Part shown: piece by piece, positions 21,485 to 40,787 of the stretch | Layout of the letters: every line of letters begins with the position of its first letter | Position numbering within the stretch: position 1 is the first letter of the stretch | IMG/VR virus record: IMGVR_UViG_3300045741_000195 | Location: 1-40,787 of that record | Strand: one strand, 5' to 3' | Source: a virus | DNA length: 40,787 nt | The notes under the pieces: generated by a model | What the model saw: only the letters and a program-made list of their open reading frames with translations | The model's database searches: none | What the model was told of the DNA's origin: nothing | Position numbers and translations under genes: made by a program

Positions 21485-21525
21485 ATTTGCGGCTTGCCGC
21501 CGTTTGGATATTTGAAAAACAAAAG

Positions 21526-22428
21526 ATGAGTTTTATTATGCAGTTGATTAGCGAACAAAATGACCAGCCCATATTGTCCAGCCCAAATGGAAGCAAACCG
21601 TTCGTTATGGGCAGTACGGAAGGATTGAATGAAATCTACTGTGAAAGCAATCTGGAAACAATGTCCAAGATGCCGGATGGTTTTGTTGACTTAACTGTTA
21701 CAAGTCCGCCGTATGATAACCTTAGAGATTATAAAGGGTTTTCATTCCCATTTGAAATGATTGCAAAAGAACTTTACCGGGTTACAAAGGATGGTGGCGT
21801 ATTGGTTTGGGTTGTTGGCGATGCTACAAAGGATGGATGCGAAAGTTTAACATCATTCAAACAGGCAATTTACTTTGTAGAGGAATGTGGTTTCAATTTA
21901 CACGATACAATGATTTATGAAAAGGAATCATTGCCACTAACTCACAAACGATATGAACAGCACTTTGAATTTATGTTTGTACTTGTAAAAGGTAAATTAA
22001 AAACCTTTAACGGACTTATGGAAAAATCAATTCATTTTGGGCAAAGCAAAGTATCGGCAAAGCATAGTGCAAGTTTGAATGAGAAAGGAAGTAAGCAAGG
22101 GGGGAAACTTGGAAAAGTAATAACCATTAAGCAATATAAATTAAGAGGCAACATTTGGGAATATGAAACAGGACTTAACGGGCATAGCAAAGATGGAATT
22201 GCCTTTAAACACCCGGCTATATTCCCGGAGAAACTTGCCGCTGACCATATTTACAGTTGGAGTAACGAAGGGGATATTGTTTATGATTGTTTCGGAGGAA
22301 GTGGTACAACGGCAAAGATGGCCCACCTTCAAAAACGAAACTGGATATTGTCAGAGATAAGTAAGGAATACTGTCAGATTGCTGAAAAGAGGATTGCACC
22401 GTACTTGGCCCAAACCTCGCTATTTTAG
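21526..22428 (+). CDS. DNA amino-methyltransferase (N6-adenine or N4-cytosine), orphan
   Basis: A 300-residue methyltransferase. TSPPY is at residues 59-63 (catalytic motif IV) and YDCFGGSGTTA at about 253-263 (SAM-binding motif I). This order, with the catalytic motif first, marks the beta class. TSPPY is common in N4-cytosine and some N6-adenine enzymes. The ATG at 21526 is preferred to a TTG at 21487 lying in the repeat. No restriction enzyme gene is adjacent, so it probably protects phage DNA from host restriction. Confidence 0.85.
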   Translation: MSFIMQLISEQNDQPILSSPNGSKPFVMGSTEGLNEIYCESNLETMSKMPDGFVDLTVTSPPYDNLRDYKGFSFPFEMIAKELYRVTKDGGVLVWVVGDATKDGCESLTSFKQAIYFVEECGFNLHDTMIYEKESLPLTHKRYEQHFEFMFVLVKGKLKTFNGLMEKSIHFGQSKVSAKHSASLNEKGSKQGGKLGKVITIKQYKLRGNIWEYETGLNGHSKDGIAFKHPAIFPEKLAADHIYSWSNEGDIVYDCFGGSGTTAKMAHLQKRNWILSEISKEYCQIAEKRIAPYLAQTSLF

Positions 22429-29323: not shown

Positions 29324-31534
29324 GTGGCTTACCGGGACTCAACAGTTACATACGCAAATGGGACATCAGTAAATGCCACCAAACCTTCTTTACTTCAGCC
29401 GAGTGATTACTTAGTAGCCTTTCTTTTAATAGATGATGATTTTGCATCACCACCTACGATAACGCCGCCGGCGGGATGGACATTTTTAACTGGAAGCAAT
29501 AAGGGTAACAACGCAGGGGTGCCCGACGGCTTTTGTTCTTTTGTATATACGAAATTAGCCGGATCAAGTGAGCCCGCTACTTGGGCATGGTCAAAAAGTG
29601 GGGCAGCAAAAGACTTTACGGTTATTGTCGTTGCCAATTCAGGCCGGATAGCTAATCCGACAATAATATCACATTATACTACAAATTCAACCGGTAATGC
29701 GACGCCGGTAACAGTATCGGACAGCGGGCTTACAGCCTTACAGGATGATGATGTACTGATATTCGCTATTGGTGATATCACGGTTAATACCGATACATGG
29801 ACATTCAGCGCACCGCCATCCGGCTTTTCGCTTCGGCAGAATGCGGATAACGCATTTAATGTCGCTTGCCTGGCAACAAAGGACGGCGTAGCTGCCGGCG
29901 CCACAGGAACCCTGTCACTTACTCTTACCCGTACGGCAGGAACGGGAACGGCAGGTTATGGAGTAACGGTTCTTTCGCTGCCGGATGCCCCAAACATGAC
30001 AATGTATCGGCCTTCGTTTCCAATGCGTGCCAGAGTTAATATTGAACTTGTAAGGCAGATCATTCCGGTGCAAGGACCTGCTTCCGTATTAAATACTTAT
30101 AATGATAGCGTTACCGAGGCAGCCACAGCCACCGAGGCAACGGACGCATCGGTAATATTCGCAGCGACAATAACAGAAACGGGCGCAGCCACAGAAACGG
30201 AGACGGCAGCATTAATAACCAACCCTGCGATAACGGAGGCGGCGACAGCAACAGAAACCGAGAATGGATTAACAACAGCGATCGCTTCAATAACCGAAAG
30301 TGGGAGTGCAGCCGATTCGCCTGATGCCACCAAAGTACAAGCTGCGGCGATAACCGAGGCAACTTCGGCAACAGAAACAGAGGACGCCGTCAAGATTTTA
30401 GCGGCTTCAATAACGGAATCTGCAGCGGCGGCCGATAGCGAAACAGCGACCATTATTTATGCTGTTAATATATCTGAGAGTGGCACCGCAGCAGAAATAG
30501 AGGATGCCACAAAAATTGAGGCGGCAAATATTACTGAAACCGGAAGCGCAATAGAATCCGAAAGCGTAACTATTGTCTTTGCTGCCACCATAACCGAATC
30601 GGCAACAGCTACCGAATCAGAGACTGTTTCGGCAATATTTAATCCTTCAATAACCGAATCAGCCACAGCCACCGACACACCGGCTGCAAGTGCTGTATTC
30701 GCGGCTACTATTTCTGAATCTGGATCAGCAATAGAAACAGAATCAGCATCATTAATAACCGGTCCTTCGATAAATGAAAGCGGGACGGCCACCGAGACAG
30801 AAAATGCAACTAAAACATTAGTGGCATCTATTTCAGAACTTGGCAATGCAGCAGATTCTGAAGATGCGGTAAAGAATTTATTCGCATCAATAGCCGAATC
30901 AGCGGCAGCACTTGACAGCCAAACCGCAACTATTGTTTATGCTGTGACTATCTCGGAAAGCGGATCTGCAACAGATAATAGTGATGCAATCATTACTAAG
31001 GTTGCCGCAATTTCTGAGTCAGCGGCAGCAACGGATAGTAGTGATAGGTCTTTGCTTTTTGTGGCCGCAACAACAGAGGCAATGTCGGCGGCAGATTCAA
31101 CCGATGCAATTAAAGTCGCTGCAGCATCAATTACAGAGGCGGGAGTCGCTACAGAAACAATTACTGCCACAGTTAGCGGGGTCAATGAAGTTATAGAGGC
31201 GACTACGCCGGATGATAATATAACAGCTTCTTTAGTTACTACTGCAAGCAATACAGAAAGTGCAACGGCGGCCGATACCGTGACATTTGGTTATATTACT
31301 GTATCATCAATTACGGAAACGGCAAACGCAAGCGACCAATCTGACGGAATAGTACTTACCGGATATGCCTATTTAACCGAAAGCGCCACTGCTGACGATC
31401 AATGTGACGCCATAGCGATCACCATTCCTCCTGCAATGCCATCGGGAGGCGGAATGACAAGAGCCAGAAAAAAGAAGAAAATTGATAATAGCCTGTATGA
31501 ATTTTTTAAGGCCTTAATTGAGCGAGATGGATAA
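29324..31534 (+). CDS. Repeat-rich head fibre-like protein
   Basis: A 736-residue protein with a GTG start (the ATG two bases upstream is in another frame and stops after 16 codons). Residues 1-240 form a beta-rich globular domain with PPAGWTFLTGSN and FVYTKLAG, usual in virion and surface proteins. Residues about 260-690 are some 20 imperfect repeats of about 23 residues built on the pattern ITESgtAtEtesA...i.AA, low in aromatic residues and very rich in Ala, Thr, Ser, Glu. The end (RARKKKKIDNSLYEFFKALI) is basic and may bind the capsid. It could be a long flexible fibre. Confidence 0.6.
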   Translation: MAYRDSTVTYANGTSVNATKPSLLQPSDYLVAFLLIDDDFASPPTITPPAGWTFLTGSNKGNNAGVPDGFCSFVYTKLAGSSEPATWAWSKSGAAKDFTVIVVANSGRIANPTIISHYTTNSTGNATPVTVSDSGLTALQDDDVLIFAIGDITVNTDTWTFSAPPSGFSLRQNADNAFNVACLATKDGVAAGATGTLSLTLTRTAGTGTAGYGVTVLSLPDAPNMTMYRPSFPMRARVNIELVRQIIPVQGPASVLNTYNDSVTEAATATEATDASVIFAATITETGAATETETAALITNPAITEAATATETENGLTTAIASITESGSAADSPDATKVQAAAITEATSATETEDAVKILAASITESAAAADSETATIIYAVNISESGTAAEIEDATKIEAANITETGSAIESESVTIVFAATITESATATESETVSAIFNPSITESATATDTPAASAVFAATISESGSAIETESASLITGPSINESGTATETENATKTLVASISELGNAADSEDAVKNLFASIAESAAALDSQTATIVYAVTISESGSATDNSDAIITKVAAISESAAATDSSDRSLLFVAATTEAMSAADSTDAIKVAAASITEAGVATETITATVSGVNEVIEATTPDDNITASLVTTASNTESATAADTVTFGYITVSSITETANASDQSDGIVLTGYAYLTESATADDQCDAIAITIPPAMPSGGGMTRARKKKKIDNSLYEFFKALIERDG
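30090..31395 (+). repeat. Tandem imperfect 69-base coding repeats
   Basis: About 20 degenerate copies of a roughly 23-codon unit inside the fibre-like gene. DNA copies differ at many third positions while the ITES-A-ATE-E-A protein pattern is kept, which suggests an old expansion under selection rather than a recent slippage event. Confidence 0.7.
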
Positions 31535-32480: not shown

Positions 32481-33683
32481 ATGGCAGACGAAATCAAAGA
32501 CGCCGTCGAAGCTATTGAATCAAAAATAAAAGAATTCAAAGCCGATATGACGGAGTCTCAAAAAAAAGAACTTAAAAAGTACACCGATGAACTTGAAAAA
32601 GAAAGGAAAGAGTTCAAGGCAAAGGTGGATGAACTGAATCTGAAAGTTGCCGAAAAAGAAGGAACATTAGGCGATATTCAGCAGGAAGTAAAAGAACTCA
32701 AAGCAAAATCAGGCCGTTTCCGTCCTTCGGCGGGTGGGAAATATGAAGGACTGAGAAACACTATCGCCGATGGTATCGCCCAGGGTATTGCTGAACGTAA
32801 AGCGGATATCATGAAATCTGCATCAGGTGAACTGATGACGCCCCATGAAATAAAGACGGTTGCCGATATTAGCAGTTCAAACCTGACAACGGCCAATTAC
32901 ATTTCGATGCTGGATTGGACAACCGGCATGGAGCCTACAGGTCAGTTTCACTTCAGGAATCTTTTGAATACCATTTTGTCCGATACAGATTTTGTTCAGT
33001 TCCCGCGTGCAAATGTTCCGATAGGGGAAGGTTCATTCGGCAGGCAGGCAACTGAAAATACGGCCAAACGCCAGGTTGACCGTGATTACACAATGGTTAA
33101 TCTTACATTGCTGCCGATGGCCGCTTTCGCTATTTGTTCAAGACAGTCTCTTCGTAATATAATCTTCCTGCAGTCATGGCTGCCTCAGTCAATGATGAAT
33201 CAAATGGAAGAAAGTGAGGACACCGATTTTGCAAATGCGCTGGTAGCTGCAGCAACCGGAAGCACAACAACAACAAAGACGGTAGCAGCGGAAAAGATCA
33301 TTTCGTATCTCAAAAACCTTATACAAGGTAAATTCAACCCGAATGGTGTTGCAGTAGATCCTGACGTATGGGAGGACTTCCTTTCTTTCCGTCCGGGTAC
33401 GAATAAGGAAATGTATTCTTTGCCTTTTGTTGCCGGGGTAACGCCTTCAGGACAGGTAACTGTACTTGGCCGTCCTGTTTATCCGGTTAACTGGTTAACG
33501 GGCCGCAGGGTATTGGTTGGTGATTGGACTAAAGCAGCAATCGTTCAAAGCGAAGGCTTACGTTTGCGTCAATCCGATAGCCACGCATCAATATTTACCA
33601 GCAATGAGATTGCCTTCCTTTTGGAAAGGACCGAAGGGCTGGCGATATTCAGGCCGGATGCGTTCATTACAACGACAGTATAG
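32481..33683 (+). CDS. Major capsid protein (HK97 fold)
   Basis: A 400-residue capsid protein. Residues 1-75 are a charged coiled coil (the delta or scaffold domain, removed by the protease), followed by the HK97-type body with FHFRNLLNTILSDTDFVQFP, MAAFAICSRQSLRNIIFLQ, GVAVDPDVWEDFLSFR and the C-terminal EGLAIFRPDAFI. It builds the head in hundreds of copies. It is followed 27 bases later by a strong terminator, which separates it from the accessory operon. Confidence 0.9.
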   Translation: MADEIKDAVEAIESKIKEFKADMTESQKKELKKYTDELEKERKEFKAKVDELNLKVAEKEGTLGDIQQEVKELKAKSGRFRPSAGGKYEGLRNTIADGIAQGIAERKADIMKSASGELMTPHEIKTVADISSSNLTTANYISMLDWTTGMEPTGQFHFRNLLNTILSDTDFVQFPRANVPIGEGSFGRQATENTAKRQVDRDYTMVNLTLLPMAAFAICSRQSLRNIIFLQSWLPQSMMNQMEESEDTDFANALVAAATGSTTTTKTVAAEKIISYLKNLIQGKFNPNGVAVDPDVWEDFLSFRPGTNKEMYSLPFVAGVTPSGQVTVLGRPVYPVNWLTGRRVLVGDWTKAAIVQSEGLRLRQSDSHASIFTSNEIAFLLERTEGLAIFRPDAFITTTV

Positions 33684-33710: not shown

Positions 33711-33741
33711 ACCGGGGGGGTGGGTAGCCTCCCGGTTTTTT
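33711..33741 (+). terminator. Intrinsic terminator after the major capsid gene
   Basis: ACCGGGGGG (33711-33719) pairs with CCTCCCGGT (33728-33736), nine base pairs with one G-U, and the T tract runs 33736-33741. Partial read-through would set the level of downstream genes. Confidence 0.85.
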
Positions 33742-33889: not shown

Positions 33890-34120
33890 ATGAAATTTAT
33901 ACCGATAGAAAAAGCGAGAGGTCTTGAAATTGATCAGCCTGTATTTACTATTGATGCAAACGGTAATTACGGTTACGGAAAATTAATTAAGGAAGAAAAA
34001 ACTGCTAAAGGAATTGAAAGGACATTTGAGATGTCCGCATTTTATCCTGACCCTAATTCAACGGCACCATTATATCCTTATCGTCAAACAAATATTACTC
34101 ACGTCTGTATACCCAAATGA
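33890..34120 (+). CDS. Small protein, first gene of the accessory operon
   Basis: A 76-residue protein, probably a small beta-barrel (LEIDQPVFTIDANGNYGYGK). It is unrecognised. It and the next gene look like small sensor or binding modules placed in front of the glycosyltransferase genes. The stop overlaps the next ATG by four bases. Confidence 0.5.
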   Translation: MKFIPIEKARGLEIDQPVFTIDANGNYGYGKLIKEEKTAKGIERTFEMSAFYPDPNSTAPLYPYRQTNITHVCIPK

Positions 34121-34335
34121 TTCACGAATTAAGAAATACCATTGCGGTTCATACGCCTTTAGGTTTAGGAACGGCAATCGCATGGATTGATTATGGTTGC
34201 GAAGTCAATACAGTTTGGAAAATTCGTTTAAATGATGGTAGAGTAAGAAATTTTTACGACGATGATATACTGATGTATGAAAATAAAATGAACGGTGAGC
34301 CTGAAATTATTATTCCAAAAACATGGAAAAAATGA
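34117..34335 (+). CDS. Small protein of the accessory operon
   Basis: A 72-residue protein with the beta-barrel-like pattern GLGTAIAWIDYG...WKIRLNDGRVRNFYDDDIL, as in small SH3-like proteins. It is unrecognised. Four-base overlaps on both sides place it firmly in the operon. Confidence 0.5.
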   Translation: MIHELRNTIAVHTPLGLGTAIAWIDYGCEVNTVWKIRLNDGRVRNFYDDDILMYENKMNGEPEIIIPKTWKK

Positions 34336-34973
34336 GTGAATGGAACTTAATATCATCGGCTTATTGCCTAAATCTTGATCGTAACGTTCAACGATGGATA
34401 GACAGTTCAATCCAATTTCATAATGTGGGGCTGTATAATGTTGAACGAATTAATTGTATTGAATCTTTGGAAAACCGTTATCTGTCATTTAATAAGTCAC
34501 ACTACGATACGGTTAAAAAGGGTTATGAGACCGGTCAGCCATTTGCCATCTTTGAGGATGATATAATTTTTGATCAGCTATGGAAATATATTGCGGAGGG
34601 TTCGAATCAACTTCCTGAAAATTGGGACGCCCTTTATCTGGGTGCGAATATTTGCGGTGAATGGTCAATGCCAGAAAGGTTCAGTAGCCATCTTTCCCGG
34701 TTGCCTAATGCCTGGCAAAGCCATGCGATTATTTATTCGATGAAGGGAGCAAAGTTTGTTATTGATAACTTTAATCCTGACACATTCCCGGTATATGATG
34801 AATGGTTGCGGGTTAATATGATGCCGATGGGTAATGTTTACTTATTAACGCCAATGATATGCTACCAGCGCCCGATATATTCGGACATTTGGCAGACGGA
34901 AACGAATTATACGGCTGTTCATTTTGCGGGAAATAAATATTTAATGAACAGGGATAAATTTGCAGCTATATGA
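34332..34973 (+). CDS. Glycosyltransferase, GT25-like
   Basis: A 213-residue protein; the ATG at 34332 (MSEWNLISS) forms an ATGA overlap with the previous stop and is preferred to the ATG at 34323. The pattern AYCLNLDRNVQRW near the start, FAIFEDDIIF at 72-80 (the acidic metal-sugar motif) and WDALYLGANICG fit glycosyltransferase family 25, which adds hexoses to lipooligosaccharide or protein glycans. It is the first transferase of the cassette and is short but seems complete. Confidence 0.75.
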   Translation: MSEWNLISSAYCLNLDRNVQRWIDSSIQFHNVGLYNVERINCIESLENRYLSFNKSHYDTVKKGYETGQPFAIFEDDIIFDQLWKYIAEGSNQLPENWDALYLGANICGEWSMPERFSSHLSRLPNAWQSHAIIYSMKGAKFVIDNFNPDTFPVYDEWLRVNMMPMGNVYLLTPMICYQRPIYSDIWQTETNYTAVHFAGNKYLMNRDKFAAI

Positions 34974-35707
34974 TACACTTTATTACTTATAGCGGTGACA
35001 ATATGAGCCGAAGCCGGGAGGTGTGTGTACAGGCTGCTAAAGAGCATGGGGCTGTTGTTATACATGAATATACAAATGCAGATATTGATAACCATTTTTA
35101 TATAAATAACATCGATATCCTAAACGAAACTCGTGGTATCGGTTTTTGGTTATGGAAGCCATATTTTATTAACGAAATTATTTTAGCTTTAAATGATGGC
35201 AATATTCTTATTTACTGCGATGCCGGGGTAAAGATTATTGAGAATGTAAACAGGATTATTGAAGTCATGGATCAGGACATTTTCCTTTTCTCAAATGGGC
35301 ATCAGCACATTCATTGGTGTAAGGCCGATGTTATGCAGGCTATTTTAGGCAGGCAGATTGACGATACGGTTCAACAGGTACAGGCTTCAGTAATATTTTT
35401 TAAGGTCAACCGGAACACAAGGAACTTAGTTAAAGAATGGTTACTATGGTGCCAGATGCCGGGGTTTATTGATGATAGTCCTTCTAAATTACCCAATCAC
35501 CCGGAGTTTGCACAACATCGTTACGATCAGGCAATACTTACCTGCATGGCTATTAAATATGGCTATAAACAGCATTGGTGGGCAGATAAGTTGTGGTATG
35601 AATCGCAGCGTTACCGATGGCCAGAAGATCATTACCCGGTAATGTTTGAACATCACAGGAAAAGAAATCAGGGCGCAAAAACTAATCCGGAGGGTCCGAC
35701 ATGGTAA
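34970..35707 (+). CDS. Glycosyltransferase-like protein
   Basis: A 245-residue protein with RGIGFWLWKPYFI (about 55-67) followed by LIYCDAGVKI (about 82-91). The first motif and a DAG in place of DxD are typical of a group of putative GT-A glycosyltransferases in bacterial surface polysaccharide loci. FFKVNRNTRNLVKEWLLWCQ follows. The donor and acceptor are unknown. It overlaps both neighbours by a few bases. Confidence 0.7.
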   Translation: MIHFITYSGDNMSRSREVCVQAAKEHGAVVIHEYTNADIDNHFYINNIDILNETRGIGFWLWKPYFINEIILALNDGNILIYCDAGVKIIENVNRIIEVMDQDIFLFSNGHQHIHWCKADVMQAILGRQIDDTVQQVQASVIFFKVNRNTRNLVKEWLLWCQMPGFIDDSPSKLPNHPEFAQHRYDQAILTCMAIKYGYKQHWWADKLWYESQRYRWPEDHYPVMFEHHRKRNQGAKTNPEGPTW

Positions 35708-35889
35708 TAAGAACTGAACTTTGTCAAACTAAAGACACCTATATTGAAATATTACAGGTAGTAATGTCCTCGGAAATAGACCGGGTGGCGCCTATAATAG
35801 TATGTGGTATTTTTAAAATAAAACCAAAGGATGGGTATTCTATTAATGATCTTTGGCTAAAAATAGTTCACGCTTATGATAATAGGTAA
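35701..35889 (+). CDS. Small protein of the accessory operon
   Basis: A 62-residue protein of unknown function (YIEILQVVMSSEIDRVAPII). It overlaps the preceding gene by 7 bases and the next by 14, so it is likely translated. No motif is recognised; it may be a remnant of a larger enzyme. Confidence 0.4.
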   Translation: MVIRTELCQTKDTYIEILQVVMSSEIDRVAPIIVCGIFKIKPKDGYSINDLWLKIVHAYDNR

Positions 35890-36382
35890 CGGCGATATAG
35901 CAAGTGCAATAATAGACAGGGAAGATGTCAACTTTTTTGCCTCCGGTGTAAGTAATTCAGCCTGCACAGATTTTAAACAATTTAACCGGGAAATAACGTT
36001 ATTGGATAAAATGCCTAAACACGTTCACGTAGTTTATTTTTCATCACTTTGCATTTATTACAGCCCTTCGTTTTATGCCAATCACAAAAAAATGATGGAA
36101 AGGATTGTAAGAACCTCATTTGATTCCTATACTATTGTGAGGCTGGGAAATATTTCGTGGGGAATTAATCCAAATACATTTATTAATTACTTAAAAGCGC
36201 ATCTTGAAGCTGAGATACAGAATGTTTATAGGCATATAATAGACAAAGAGGAATTTCAATACTGGCTTTCAATGATAAGGGTAGGAGAAAGGGATATTAT
36301 GAATGTCCCTGGTAAAATGGTTTGGGTGCCTGATTTTGTCATGGATCTAAAAATTAAAACTATTGGAAACAGTCAGTCTTAA
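35876..36382 (+). CDS. Short NAD(P)-dependent epimerase/dehydrogenase-like protein
   Basis: A 168-residue protein with a Rossmann start MIIGNGDIASAI (GxGxxA at the very N-terminus), VVYFSSLCIYY with Ser56 or Ser57, and YANHK with Tyr67 and Lys71, the YxxxK pair of short-chain dehydrogenases. It is much shorter than sugar epimerases of this superfamily (about 300 residues), so it may be a minimal or reduced form. In this context it would convert a nucleotide sugar or act on the glycan. It overlaps neighbours on both sides. Confidence 0.6.
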   Translation: MIIGNGDIASAIIDREDVNFFASGVSNSACTDFKQFNREITLLDKMPKHVHVVYFSSLCIYYSPSFYANHKKMMERIVRTSFDSYTIVRLGNISWGINPNTFINYLKAHLEAEIQNVYRHIIDKEEFQYWLSMIRVGERDIMNVPGKMVWVPDFVMDLKIKTIGNSQS

Positions 36383-36908
36383 TCAGGATTCATTGCGCGA
36401 ATGGCAGAATGAGGACATGGAACTTCTGCGTTATACCTATGAACTTTACCCTGAAGATTTTGTACTTGATATAGGAAGTTATTTAAAAGAATGGGGCAAT
36501 GAGATTGTTAAGCGTTATGGTTGTTCGGTAGAATATTTCGACGCGCTGGATAATAAAGCGGCATGGATTTTTGACGGCAAGTTATCTTTCGGAGGCGCTT
36601 ATTATTACACCTCAATGTTTGCCGAAGAAAAAACGGTAGAATATAAATGTGTTGATATTGCTCCTTACCTGAATAAAGAAATCAGGCTGGTTAAGATAAA
36701 CATTGAAGGCGGCGAATACCAGTTATTGGATTACATTATTGAAAAAGGATTGATGAATAACATCGTAGATTTGCAGGTGCAGTTTCATTTAGTGGAGGGC
36801 GCTGATAGTGAAAGGGAATATGAGTTATTGGCCAAACGGTTATCGGTTACCCATGACTTAACATGGCGTTATCCTTTTTGCTGGGAGAATTGGACGATTA
36901 AAAAATAA
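36363..36908 (+). CDS. FkbM-type methyltransferase
   Basis: A 181-residue protein with a TTG start (an ATG is present at 36417). EDFVLDIGSY (about 31-40) is SAM motif I and VKINIEGGEYQLL (about 110-122) is the FkbM signature (normally D-E-G-x-E). FkbM enzymes usually put methyl groups on sugar hydroxyls. It is the first of two methyltransferase-like genes in a row. The 20-base overlap with the preceding gene supports coupled translation. Confidence 0.7.
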   Translation: METVSLNQDSLREWQNEDMELLRYTYELYPEDFVLDIGSYLKEWGNEIVKRYGCSVEYFDALDNKAAWIFDGKLSFGGAYYYTSMFAEEKTVEYKCVDIAPYLNKEIRLVKINIEGGEYQLLDYIIEKGLMNNIVDLQVQFHLVEGADSEREYELLAKRLSVTHDLTWRYPFCWENWTIKK

Positions 36909-36910
36909 CT

Positions 36911-37477
36911 ATGCTATCATTCGCAGAAAAATATGGTGATAATGTTACAAGTCAATTCGGGGAGAATAGAATTATTGACGAATGTATTAAACGGATTCAG
37001 CCTGAATTAAAAATTGCCGTTGAATTCGGGGCGCCAGACAGAATGTATTGCAGTAATATTTATCCGCTTATCGGTAAAGGATGGGATTGCTATTATTTCG
37101 ATGATAAAACGAATGACCCCTATGTTACTAAAAAATTAATAACCGTTGATAATATAAATGGCTTGCCAAAGTGCTCGGTGCTTTCAATGGACACAGACGG
37201 GGCCGATTATTATTTGTGGCAGGCATATAACGGGCAACCAGATATTGTTGTAATTGAGATCAATAGTTCACTTCCGCCGATGGTAGATCATGTAAGCATG
37301 GAGAAGGGAGCCAGCTATATATCAATGCTTACTTTGGGAATCAGTAAAGGTTATTTTTTATTATGTCATACAGGGAATATGATTTTTATTTTGAATAAAC
37401 ATCGATATATGTTTCCTGAAATAAAAGGCGATGGAATAGAAAACTGGGAAGATTACTTTAATAAATCCTGGCAATGA
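36911..37477 (+). CDS. Second methyltransferase-like protein
   Basis: A 188-residue protein that begins with SQFGENRIIDECIKR, then AVEFGAPDRMYCSN (motif-I like) and SVLSMDTDGADYYLWQA, VVIEINSSLPP. This pattern resembles FkbM-like methyltransferases found in glycan loci (usual form S-I-D-x-D-G-x-D-y). It is distinct from the upstream gene. Target unknown; sugar O-methylation is an inference. Its stop overlaps the next start as ATGA. Confidence 0.55.
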   Translation: MLSFAEKYGDNVTSQFGENRIIDECIKRIQPELKIAVEFGAPDRMYCSNIYPLIGKGWDCYYFDDKTNDPYVTKKLITVDNINGLPKCSVLSMDTDGADYYLWQAYNGQPDIVVIEINSSLPPMVDHVSMEKGASYISMLTLGISKGYFLLCHTGNMIFILNKHRYMFPEIKGDGIENWEDYFNKSWQ

Positions 37478-38241
37478 TTACCTCAAAATCACTTTCATCG
37501 GGCGGGCTCGGCAGGATGGGCAATCAAATGTTCACCATTGCCGGGTGTATCGGAATTGCGCTTAGATCGGGGCAGTCCTATGCCTTCCCCGCATGGATAA
37601 CGAAAGACAATGAGATATTCGGACAAAAGCCAGATAATATTAACGATTACCTGGTTAAGTCTTTACCTCCCCTTGCGGATTGGAGTAACTTTTTGGACTA
37701 CGGTTACTTTTGGGGTTATAAAGACGTTTATTTGCCGATTGGCAACTGGTCGATAGATGCGCATATGCAATCAGAAAAATTCTTTAAATCTTATATAAGG
37801 ACAATACGGGAAACATTTACTTTCAAAGATGAACCAGAACAGAATGACTATGTGGCGATTCATTACCGGGCCGGTGATTATATAGATAACCCTGACGCCC
37901 AGCATCCGAGATGTTCTAAAGAATATTATGAAAAGGCAATAGCATTATTCCCGGAAGAAAATTTTTTTGATGTTTATACAGACGATAAAGAAGCATTCAC
38001 CGGTTTGGGAATAAAAGCAAATTTCCGGTTTAACGGAAGATCAAATTACATAGATGATTTTAAATATTTAAAAAGATCAAAATCTTTCATTTGTGCAAAC
38101 AGTTCTTTTTCTTTAATGGCGGCAATATTGGGAGATCATCCTGAAAAGAAGATTGTTTGCCCTCGAAGGTGGTTCGGTTCACAGATGCCGCCAGAATTTA
38201 ATACCGATGATATTTACCCCGAAAACGCTATTATACTTTGA
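37474..38241 (+). CDS. Glycosyltransferase family 11 (fucosyltransferase-like)
   Basis: A 255-residue protein with LGRMGNQMFTIAG (residues 12-24) and YVAIHYRAGDYI (126-137, the HxRxGD motif), then a C-terminal FICANSSFSLMAAIL. These are the three hallmarks of GT11 alpha-1,2-fucosyltransferases and relatives, which use GDP-fucose. It is slightly shorter than typical members (about 290). The GDP-fucose would come from the host, as no synthesis gene is seen here. Confidence 0.85.
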   Translation: MITSKSLSSGGLGRMGNQMFTIAGCIGIALRSGQSYAFPAWITKDNEIFGQKPDNINDYLVKSLPPLADWSNFLDYGYFWGYKDVYLPIGNWSIDAHMQSEKFFKSYIRTIRETFTFKDEPEQNDYVAIHYRAGDYIDNPDAQHPRCSKEYYEKAIALFPEENFFDVYTDDKEAFTGLGIKANFRFNGRSNYIDDFKYLKRSKSFICANSSFSLMAAILGDHPEKKIVCPRRWFGSQMPPEFNTDDIYPENAIIL

Positions 38242-39299
38242 ATATACTTGCCTCCGTTCACCTTTATTTACCTACCCATAACTGCGGAAGTGAGGCAATG
38301 CTTCACCATGTCTTTAAATACCTTATTTCAAAAGGACATCATTGCCGTGTTATCCTTCACAGAGATTTAGACATAGCAACTCCTTATGAATGGGAAGGCG
38401 TTGAAGTATTCGGGTCAAAGCCGGGGACTATGGCAGATACCTATCGGTGGGCAGACGTGATTATTACTCATCTTGACTTTACTCAGTTTACTATCGTGAT
38501 GGCAAGGGAAGCCCGGCGTCCACTGGTTCATTTCGTTCATAACGATATTCCTTATAGTTCAATAGTAAATAATTTTGGTGGCGTTTCAGCAGTCTATAAT
38601 TCAGAATGGATAAAAGAAAAGATCGGTTATACGATACCTGGGTTCGTTCTACATCCTCCCTGCGATGTGGCCTTTTATGATACCGGGGCAACGGTTAAAG
38701 AACTTTTTGACCGGGAATATATTACCCTTATTTCTTTAAATGAACGAAAGGGGGGCCATTTTTTTTACCAAATCGCAAAGGAGATGCCGGATAAAAAGTT
38801 TATGGGTATAATAGGCAGTTATGATAATCCGGGTCCGCTTAAAAAAACTCAGGTAGATATTATTAATGAACTGGTACAGTTACCCAATTTTACCCTTGTC
38901 GCAAATACACCGGACATTATTTCATCCTATAAAAAGACGAGGATTTTACTAATGCCCTCTGACTACGAAAGCTGGGGCAGGACGGCTACTGAGGCGATGT
39001 GTTCTGGGGTCCCGGTGATCTGCACCCCAACACCTGGACTAAAAGAAAACTGCCGGGATGCGGCTGTATATATCGGCAGACCCATTGAAGATTGCAAACC
39101 CGGAGATGCACAGGTCGAACTTGGCGAGGTGAAAGACTGGGTTAAGGCTATCCGCAAATTTGATGACTTTAATTACTACGAAAAATATTCGTTACTTTGT
39201 AAAGCGAGAGCAAAAGAACTTGACCCATTAAAAGAATTGGAAGCCCTCGAAAATTTTCTACATGACAGGAAATTTGATTATAGATTGCAAACGAGTTGA
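38238..39299 (+). CDS. Glycosyltransferase family 4
   Basis: A 353-residue GT-B glycosyltransferase with a TTG start that forms a TTGA overlap with the previous stop; no ATG fits better. LPTHNCGSEAMLHHVFKYL near residue 15 is the N-terminal donor loop; ITLISLNERKGGHFF, then PSDYESWGRTATEAMCSGVP with Glu244 and Glu252 (Ex7E), are typical of GT4 enzymes. Its last 38 bases are also the first of the head-tail connector gene, which couples the sugar operon to virion assembly. Confidence 0.88.
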   Translation: MNILASVHLYLPTHNCGSEAMLHHVFKYLISKGHHCRVILHRDLDIATPYEWEGVEVFGSKPGTMADTYRWADVIITHLDFTQFTIVMAREARRPLVHFVHNDIPYSSIVNNFGGVSAVYNSEWIKEKIGYTIPGFVLHPPCDVAFYDTGATVKELFDREYITLISLNERKGGHFFYQIAKEMPDKKFMGIIGSYDNPGPLKKTQVDIINELVQLPNFTLVANTPDIISSYKKTRILLMPSDYESWGRTATEAMCSGVPVICTPTPGLKENCRDAAVYIGRPIEDCKPGDAQVELGEVKDWVKAIRKFDDFNYYEKYSLLCKARAKELDPLKELEALENFLHDRKFDYRLQTS

Positions 39300-39915
39300 A
39301 AGCAACCCAACGGAGCCGGTTACGGTTCAGGATATTAAAGACCATTTAATTATTACATCATCCGACGACGACGCCTTACTGGCGAGGATGAATATACAAT
39401 GCCGGAAGGCTATCGAAGATTATTGTAATATCTCAATAGTTCCAAAAACAATTACTCTTATTGCCGATTTATATAAGGATTGGGAGTTGCCTTATGGCCC
39501 TGTGACAGGTATTTTGGGCGTTCAAACCAGAACAGGAAATGAAGGTAGCGGTCCGGGGACATATAGCACTTTAACTTCGGGCTGGACGACCGACGGCAAT
39601 GAATTCCTGACCTTTCAGCCTGCAAAGATTGGCAACTTTAATCCGGGTGCCCCTTTTGTCGGATATTTTCAATGGGGACCGTATGCAACGCCGTCGAGAC
39701 CGCAGAGTTATGCAAACAGGTATAAGATAACTTATACTGCAGGCTATTCACCGGTTCCTGATGGGCTGAAGTTGGCGATATTAAATGAGATTGCTTATCG
39801 GTATGAAAATAGGGGTGGTGATCCAAATTTAAGGGCATCTGCATTCACCCAACAAGGAGTATGTGAGCCCGCCCGGATATTAGCTGATCCTTACTTACGT
39901 CAATTATGGTTTTAG
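39262..39915 (+). CDS. Head-tail connector protein (gp6-like)
   Basis: A 217-residue protein. EPVTVQDIKDHLIITSSDDDALLARMNIQCRKAIEDYCN is the standard start of gp6-like (QLRG) adaptors that join portal and tail. The C-terminal half YKITYTAGYSPVPDGLKLAI and AYRYENRGGD is equally typical. The start lies within the glycosyltransferase gene in another frame. It overlaps the next gene by ten bases. Confidence 0.85.
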   Translation: MTGNLIIDCKRVESNPTEPVTVQDIKDHLIITSSDDDALLARMNIQCRKAIEDYCNISIVPKTITLIADLYKDWELPYGPVTGILGVQTRTGNEGSGPGTYSTLTSGWTTDGNEFLTFQPAKIGNFNPGAPFVGYFQWGPYATPSRPQSYANRYKITYTAGYSPVPDGLKLAILNEIAYRYENRGGDPNLRASAFTQQGVCEPARILADPYLRQLWF

Positions 39916-40667
39916 AAAACTTTTCCATAGGGCAGATGCGTTCAAAGGTGACGTTCATGGTAAACAATGCGGCAACCAGTGCAAGTATTACAAGAGACGA
40001 AGTTATTACCGGGGGCAAAAATGATTTTTATTCAGTATTACTTGTAACCCGTGGAAGGATGCGGAATAAAAGCGGAAGTCGAGGCTTATTGTTAGGCATC
40101 CTTGAGGTAAAGGATCAATTTGAACTTATCTGCCGATTTCAAAGTTCTTTAGAGGCAAATATAAAGTCGGATACAAAGGTTGTAGTTGATGGGCAGACTT
40201 ACACAATATTTGGATTTAATAAATTTGATGAAATTAATCATCTCTATATTTTTTATTTGAATACTTCCGACGCTCTTATTAATATTTCATCGCCAACATT
40301 AGGTCCAGAATTGATTACAAATGGTGGTTTTACTGGTAATGATAATAATTGGGAAACAGATGGAACGTGGTTCTACGATAATAATAAAATGTCATTTATT
40401 GGAACTGGAGCAATGGGACAATTACGTCAGTTGGGGCCATTAACGGAAGCAACGTTATATAGATTATCATTTAATATTACTGGAACAGTTGGGTTTGTGA
40501 CTGCTATTATTGGTTCGATTGGTACAAACTCTCATAAATCTTTTAATGCTGGTGATGGTAATGTTTATTTTGATGCAATATGGACAGAGGGGTATAAGGT
40601 TACTTTTTTTGCAGGTCTTGGTTTTGATGGATCAATAACAAATGTTTCAGTAAAGAAAATATTATAA
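39906..40667 (+). CDS. Head closure protein fused to a carbohydrate-binding-like domain
   Basis: A 253-residue protein. Residues 1-120 match phage head-closure (head-tail joining) proteins: IGQMRSKVTFMVNN, FYSVLLVTRGRMRNKSGSR, KVVVDGQTYTIFGFNKFDE. Residues 135-253 form an extra jelly-roll like domain, starting LGPELITNGGFTGNDNNWET, which resembles carbohydrate-binding modules added to virion and surface proteins. The family normally ends near residue 120. The extra domain would be exposed at the neck. Its stop overlaps the gp10-like start. Confidence 0.75.
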   Translation: MVLENFSIGQMRSKVTFMVNNAATSASITRDEVITGGKNDFYSVLLVTRGRMRNKSGSRGLLLGILEVKDQFELICRFQSSLEANIKSDTKVVVDGQTYTIFGFNKFDEINHLYIFYLNTSDALINISSPTLGPELITNGGFTGNDNNWETDGTWFYDNNKMSFIGTGAMGQLRQLGPLTEATLYRLSFNITGTVGFVTAIIGSIGTNSHKSFNAGDGNVYFDAIWTEGYKVTFFAGLGFDGSITNVSVKKIL

Positions 40668-40787
40668 TGCCTAACCAAGTAACCATATCTGGGTTTAAAG
40701 AGTTCGGTGATAAGATGAATAAACTGGCAACGCAATGGCCGGGTGCTTTAGATAAACTTGCAGGAGAGGCGGCTGGTAAATGGGCAA
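40667..40787 (+). CDS. HK97 gp10-like head-tail joining protein, N-terminal part (cut by window end)
   Basis: The ATG overlaps the stop of the preceding gene (TAATG). Forty codons and one base are read before the window ends. The two first bases of the window complete the next codon, and the frame then runs open to the stop at 395. The joined protein would be 171 residues, a normal length for the HK97 gp10 / tail-component family, which sits between the head-closure protein and the tail terminator. The N-terminal FKEFGDKMNKL pattern is typical of the family. Placement between a head-closure gene and a tail-terminator gene agrees with this. Confidence 0.8.
   Translation, partial: MPNQVTISGFKEFGDKMNKLATQWPGALDKLAGEAAGKWA

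Follow-up and report, generated by a model that had tools for sequence, protein, structure and literature searches.

Gene content of the capsid-connector interval

IMGVR_UViG_3300045741_000195 is a 40.8 kb viral record, and its full length of 40,787 nucleotides is referred to here as the window. Ten open reading frames (ORFs), all on the + strand, occupy positions 33890–39299 between the genes for the major capsid protein (MCP) and the head-tail connector Ad1. They encode four glycosyltransferases (GTs), a short-chain dehydrogenase/reductase (SDR), two methyltransferase-like proteins and three small proteins, and are examined here as a candidate pathway for glycosylation of the phage particle. 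The window is an essentially complete, circularly permuted siphovirus genome: a contig from a close relative, L016, crosses both window ends unbroken (L016 6038–6160 corresponds to window 40665–40787, and 6158 onward to window 1 onward), so the "linear" record represents a permuted, near-complete genome. The head module is arranged in the order TerL, portal, MuF protein, three unknowns, a Ser/Thr-rich repeat protein, protease, MCP, the block and Ad1.

The flanking genes were identified as an HK97-type MCP (32481–33683, + strand; phrog_10, E 2.1e-14) and the adaptor Ad1 (39262–39915, + strand; phrog_442, 6.2e-22), which bears out the placement of the block between capsid and connector genes in an earlier reading made from the sequence alone. 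That sequence-only reading also described all of the ORFs as overlapping in the manner of an operon. With the mechanical, program-made gene calls used here, neighbouring ORFs overlap by 4–20 nt with the sole exception of a 2-nt gap at 36908/36911, and the last gene overlaps Ad1 by 38 nt (39262–39299). An intrinsic terminator with a 9-pair stem and a T run (33711–33736, + strand) lies directly 3' of the MCP gene. Because this strong terminator and a spacer of about 150 nt intervene, the block is not directly coupled to the MCP. A stem-loop with a T run, differing in sequence, was found within 160 nt after the MCP gene in 17 of 19 relatives, the exceptions being L102 and L100. Sigma-70 promoter-like matches occurred at or below shuffle expectation and carry no weight.

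Two of the GTs score above their Pfam cut-offs. The GT4 enzyme (38238–39299, TTG start), the constant member of the cassette, matches PF00534 (Glycos_transf_1; 9.5e-13, 48.5 bits against a gathering score of 26.4), and residues E244 and E252 of its EX7E motif are invariant in 21 sequences. The GT11 enzyme (37474–38241), of the alpha-1,2-fucosyltransferase family, matches PF01531 (Glyco_transf_11; 34.3 bits against a cut-off of 23.9) and phrog_2644 (1.6e-31), with the HxRxGDY residues invariant in 13 sequences. The GT25-like enzyme (34323–34973) reaches 16.2 bits against PF01755 (Glyco_transf_25), below the cut-off of 24; it matches the glucosyltransferase family phrog_2835 (7.6e-9) and, weakly by profile, procollagen galactosyltransferase 1 (E 0.011), and its acidic EDD motif is invariant in 19 sequences.

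The fourth GT, termed GTx (34970–35707), has no significant match in Pfam, PHROGs or NCBIfam, and at least 269 matches in viral contigs. Its AlphaFold (AF2) model (pLDDT 88.9, pTM 0.88) adopts a GT-A fold. The nearest fold is GT6 alpha-1,3-galactosyltransferase (Z 14.9, 3.3 Å, 198 residues), followed by Bacteroides ovatus BoGT6a (Z 14.6) and A064R of chlorovirus PBCV-1 (Z 13.8, about 11% identity); a GT6 assignment is tentative, because these Z-scores are close and other GT-A families score nearly as high. A DAG sequence replaces the DXD motif, and its aspartate (D84) is invariant in 15 sequences. BoGT6a likewise departs from DXD.

The miniature SDR (35876–36382, 168 aa) was modelled by AF2 with a pLDDT of 88.3; its closest folds are MoeE5 (Z 13.8), UDP-glucose 4-epimerase and RmlD, all at Z 13–14 over 165 residues. 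The YxxxK residues (Y67, K71) are invariant in 15 relatives. With the Rossmann fold of a nucleoside diphosphate (NDP)-sugar SDR in the model and this motif, the protein fits the extended SDRs and is predicted to be an NDP-sugar epimerase or reductase. Of the structure predictions that the sequence-only reading had called for, those of GTx and the SDR gave both proteins a fold class. Miniature SDRs were found again in other phage contigs, some of them large (L124–L134), beside GT-like and methyltransferase-like genes.

The first methyltransferase-like protein (36363–36908, TTG start) matches the FkbM family PF05050 at E 0.00098 (19.7 bits against a gathering score of 22.7) and TIGR01444 at E 0.007, and a protein in the comparable slot of a relative (L063) matches PF05050 at 7.7e-10 (39.6 bits). 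The second, MTx (36911–37477), has no match itself, and 7 of 15 relatives match PF05050 at E ≤ 0.1 (best 4e-16). Mainly through their relatives, both proteins appear to sit in the FkbM neighbourhood. The window MTx deviates from the VEFGAxDG consensus, and its activity could be weak or altered.

Single-sequence searches of Pfam and PHROGs gave no significant family match for GTx, SDR or MTx, which were classed by fold or by relatives, and PDB sequence searches with GTx, MTx, GT11, the FkbM-like protein, SDR and GT4 returned nothing significant. Among aligned relatives the four GTs and the SDR keep invariant catalytic motifs, and the enzyme classes proposed from the sequence alone stand, for GT4 and GT11 by Pfam score and more tentatively for the others by fold, motifs or relatives. 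None of the block proteins has a clear membrane segment. The three small ORFs, s1 (33890–34120), s2 (34117–34335) and s3 (35701–35889), gave no family match in Pfam or PHROGs and no relatives among the fetched loci. An N6/N4 DNA methylase (PF01555) encoded elsewhere in the window, at 21487–22428, has no link to the cassette.

Conservation, selection and likely host of the cassette

Relatives, dozens of them uncultivated phages, were retrieved by searches with MCP, GT4, SDR and GTx. Retrieval by MCP is unbiased toward the cassette, whereas retrieval by GT4 or GTx inflates the counts of those genes. Wherever the sequence of an MCP-retrieved relative extends far enough downstream, one or more GTs occupy the MCP-Ad1 site. 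Among 78 loci scored after retrieval by GTx, GT25 was found upstream in 74/78 and an MCP no more than eight genes upstream in 64/68, with GT11 downstream in 50/50 and GT4 downstream in 48/50.

In the pooled set, loci holding both MCP and Ad1 represented 79 distinct MCPs. GT4 was present at the site in 77 of these, and the order GT25-GTx-SDR-FkbM-MTx-GT11-GT4 was broken in none (0/79), being kept across MCPs down to about 30% identity. The relatives hold intact copies in the same order, not the disrupted copies that the sequence-only reading had named as the finding to count against it. Besides the empty set, six gene sets occur in the 79 loci and form a nested series: GT4; GT25 and GT4; GT25, GTx, GT11 and GT4; and then the latter with the addition of MTx, of FkbM and MTx, and of SDR. 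This nesting is suggestive and no proof, given only three independent changes of GTx and GT11. The two GT-free sites belong to the cultured phages Cellulophaga phi10:1 and Flavobacterium 11b, in which small ORFs alone lie between MCP and Ad1; these supply the comparison with relatives lacking the block that had been proposed earlier. The GT4-only loci derive from the search with GT4; in many of them the gene preceding GT4 encodes an FkbM protein or a class I methyltransferase of another kind. On the MCP tree, GT25 changed 9 times, FkbM 6, MTx 4, and GTx and GT11 3 times each, the last two always together.

Several loci depart from the common layout. In two rearranged contigs (L202, L208) the GTx-GT11 part precedes the protease; the cassette remains within the head module and GT4 is still behind the MCP. 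GT4 lies behind an unrelated-looking MCP in the high-GC contigs L080, L087 and L088; these and three further high-GC phage contigs (L089, L092, L094), which lie outside the group, have a GT4 gene, or two in tandem, immediately behind the MCP. GT2-type enzymes take the place of other cassette members at L017:1453–2130 and L018:7642–8349. Genes resembling HNH and GIY-YIG homing endonucleases, identified by eye, lie within the MCP-Ad1 interval of L006, L011, L012, L013 and L099.

Selection was assessed against L002 and L016, which share a 127-nt exact overlap and were counted as one relative. All seven enzymes are under purifying selection, with ratios of nonsynonymous to synonymous substitution rates (dN/dS) of 0.04–0.08 for GT25, FkbM, MTx and GT4, as for the MCP, and of 0.19–0.25 for GTx, SDR and GT11. 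Protein identity was 94–97% for GT25, FkbM, GT4 and MCP and 70–78% for GTx, SDR and GT11. These values suggest that a stable core is combined with an outer part subject to exchange or to faster evolution. In a Mantel comparison of cassette-bearing phages, distances between cassette proteins correlated with MCP distances at r 0.55–0.83, compared with 0.34 for TerL against MCP; linkage may partly account for the correlation.

The host is likely a member of the Bacteroidota. The nearest cultured capsids are those of Bacteroidota phages, and related cassette-bearing contigs were found in metagenome bins assigned to Saprospiraceae (MCP 65%) and Taibaiella (52%), although these contigs are of phage size and evidence from binning is weak. 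A class-wide MCP search of 395 genomes returned just the already-known metagenome-assembled genome, and the host call therefore has no support from an integrated prophage with host flanks.

A probable late pathway for virion glycosylation and its alternatives

Taken together, the block is probably a late pathway acting in the host cytosol, where it builds a short oligosaccharide on a virion protein, with the MCP as the likeliest acceptor. Action on a cytosolic protein is the simplest interpretation because late, soluble enzymes adjoin the capsid gene with no exporter: no polytopic membrane protein was found among 461 genes in 96 MCP-Ad1 intervals, and no export protein either. Virus-encoded GTs that lack membrane segments, a mark of virion glycosylation systems, are what the block provides. 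GT11 enzymes form alpha-1,2-fucosyl links, and GT6 enzymes act beside such fucose.

We infer the acceptor, the linkage, the order of steps, the sugars, the methylation and a role of the glycan as a shield or adhesion layer. The enzymes would be expressed late and would act, as soluble proteins, directly on the virion protein. GT4 may carry out the starting or core step and GT25 the extension after it; GT11 and the GT6-like GTx, as a pair, would then add a fucose-type residue and an adjoining sugar, and the FkbM-like enzymes would last O-methylate the outer sugars. The small SDR would make or convert a nucleotide-sugar donor. This order is suggested by the nesting of gene content. GT11 always accompanies a GT6-like fold, which prompts the specific guess of an H-antigen-like step. 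The terminator after the MCP gene plausibly holds the dose of enzyme below that of capsid protein.

A number of observations weigh against this interpretation. The terminator divides the cassette from the MCP transcript, MCP C-termini have no conserved Ser/Thr tail, and no glycosylation motif was identified. Relatives of GTx are also located in bacterial polysaccharide clusters. The nested series could be phylogenetic, the joint change of GTx and GT11 comprises three independent events (p 0.25), and in one locus (L017) an SDR is present although FkbM and MTx are both missing. Co-inheritance with the MCP could result from linkage alone, which the Mantel comparison cannot distinguish from function.

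An alternative within virion glycosylation, which we regard as unlikely, is that the glycan is attached to a head or fibre protein rich in Ser/Thr and not to the MCP. As a matter of speculation, the candidate in the window would be the Ser/Thr/Ala-rich repeat protein of the head cluster (29324–31534, + strand), which has no Pfam match. Its 736 residues are 26% Ser+Thr with repeats in a 20-residue register, its gene adjoins those of the protease and MCP, and Ser/Thr-rich proteins lie within or beside the cassette in L005, L010, L018 and L102. Such proteins are not seen in all cassette loci, however, and the cassette-free cultured phages (L096, L097) also have Ser/Thr-rich virion proteins. The repeats are of the ITESGSATETE type; the gene is situated between the head genes and the protease, and L002 keeps a 636-aa homologue in the same place.

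The sequence-only reading had left the choice between glycosylation of the particle and remodelling of the host surface. In the latter case, the enzymes would alter a host surface glycan late in infection and so block superinfection or keep progeny from re-adsorbing to debris. Such a role fits the occurrence of GTx and GT11 relatives in bacterial glycan clusters; gtr-type phage GTs are known to modify host O-antigen (PMC12619734), and host flippases could export the product. Remodelling nevertheless fits the locus worse, and we consider it improbable: polytopic membrane proteins, including flippases and GtrA/GtrB-like proteins, are absent from the 96 intervals, the cassette is locked in the late head module and overlaps Ad1, and integrase and resolvase families were not found in the window. 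The pair of flippase and bactoprenol GT beside an integrase that characterises gtr-type serotype conversion is thus missing from this locus, and glycosylation of the particle is the favoured option.

Glycosylation of phage DNA at a hydroxylated base, a function that several phage GTs are known to have (Pyle 2024, cited in PMC12619734), is very improbable here, since the cassette sits among late head genes and no hydroxymethylase of the thymidylate synthase family (PF00303) was found in the window by a search that detected its controls; a search for TET/JBP oxygenases gave no match, but its controls gave none either. The view that host polysaccharide genes drift along here as cargo, without a role for the phage, might draw on the bacterial relatives of GTx and GT11; it is contradicted by strong purifying selection and by an order kept across highly diverged MCPs, and can be dismissed.

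Returning to virion glycosylation, a broader proposal is put forward tentatively, with less than even confidence. The cassette may be a dedicated, capsid-locked, stepwise pathway of a large tailed-phage clade, probably on Bacteroidota, that makes a branched, fucosylated, O-methyl-capped capsid oligosaccharide as an independent counterpart of the chlorovirus system, its outer part (GT11, GTx, SDR) changing rapidly between close relatives. Particle glycosylation in phages is known from few cultured phages and few enzymes; if the capsid is modified, a whole family of abundant uncultivated phages would make glycosylated particles. The graded gene sets would then allow stepwise dissection of the pathway, a glycosyltransferase family with no Pfam entry (GTx) would be explained, and the cassettes would be a source of compact soluble enzymes active in the bacterial cytosol.

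Comparison with known glycosylation systems

Virion glycosylation and virus-encoded capsid-glycan pathways are already known. In the open-access literature searched, no account was found of a tailed phage whose capsid gene is tied to a multi-enzyme cassette. The sequence-only reading had held a complete set able to build a branched, methylated sugar to be unusual; since cyanophages also carry multi-enzyme sugar clusters, what is unusual is the locking of the cassette to the capsid gene and its conserved order, and not the number of enzymes. Cyanophages S-SM2, S-T4 and P-TIM68 share with the window GT11 relatives of about 30% identity, a GT25 neighbour and a multi-gene sugar cluster. They differ in being T4-like phages whose clusters contain heptose/LPS-type genes and, in the genome stretches inspected, are at a distance from capsid genes. 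In Streptomyces phage TurkishDelight, gp20, encoded downstream of the capsid gene, includes a relative of GT4 (30%); this is part of a 678-aa protein, however, and none of the other cassette genes is present.

Cellulophaga phi18:1 is a siphovirus of Bacteroidota whose head module, like that of the window, includes a methyltransferase and a GT (gp40-gp41; PMC11946311). These genes lie between MuF and the protease, however, and the one GT is of the TOD1/MUCI70 type. Its gp41 was considered as a relative of the window GT4 and rejected, having no sequence similarity to it.

In mycobacteriophages Che8 and Rita, phage-encoded GTs place O-glycans on the capsid or tail (Freeman 2023, as cited in PMC11256854, PMC11652166 and PMC12619734), which proves that tailed phages can bear O-glycans on both structures. 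One or two GTs are reported there, compared with four GTs plus methyltransferases here; the sequence-only reading was right that the set exceeds the single GTs described for mycobacteriophages. In the related Maravista genome, the GTs lie near the 3' end and not between MCP and Ad1 (PMC11256854).

The closest working parallel is the chlorovirus pathway. PBCV-1 carries a branched, fucosylated, O-methyl-capped glycan on its major capsid protein Vp54 (PMC5408694, PMC7826918). Its pathway (A064R, A111/114R, A546L) shares with the block virus-encoded soluble GTs without membrane segments, a fucosyltransferase, a methyltransferase, a GT4-family enzyme and nucleotide-sugar enzymes, and the fold of GTx is close to that of A064R, by fold only at their low sequence identity. 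The two differ in that PBCV-1 is a eukaryotic virus with an unrelated capsid, whose N-glycan is proven.

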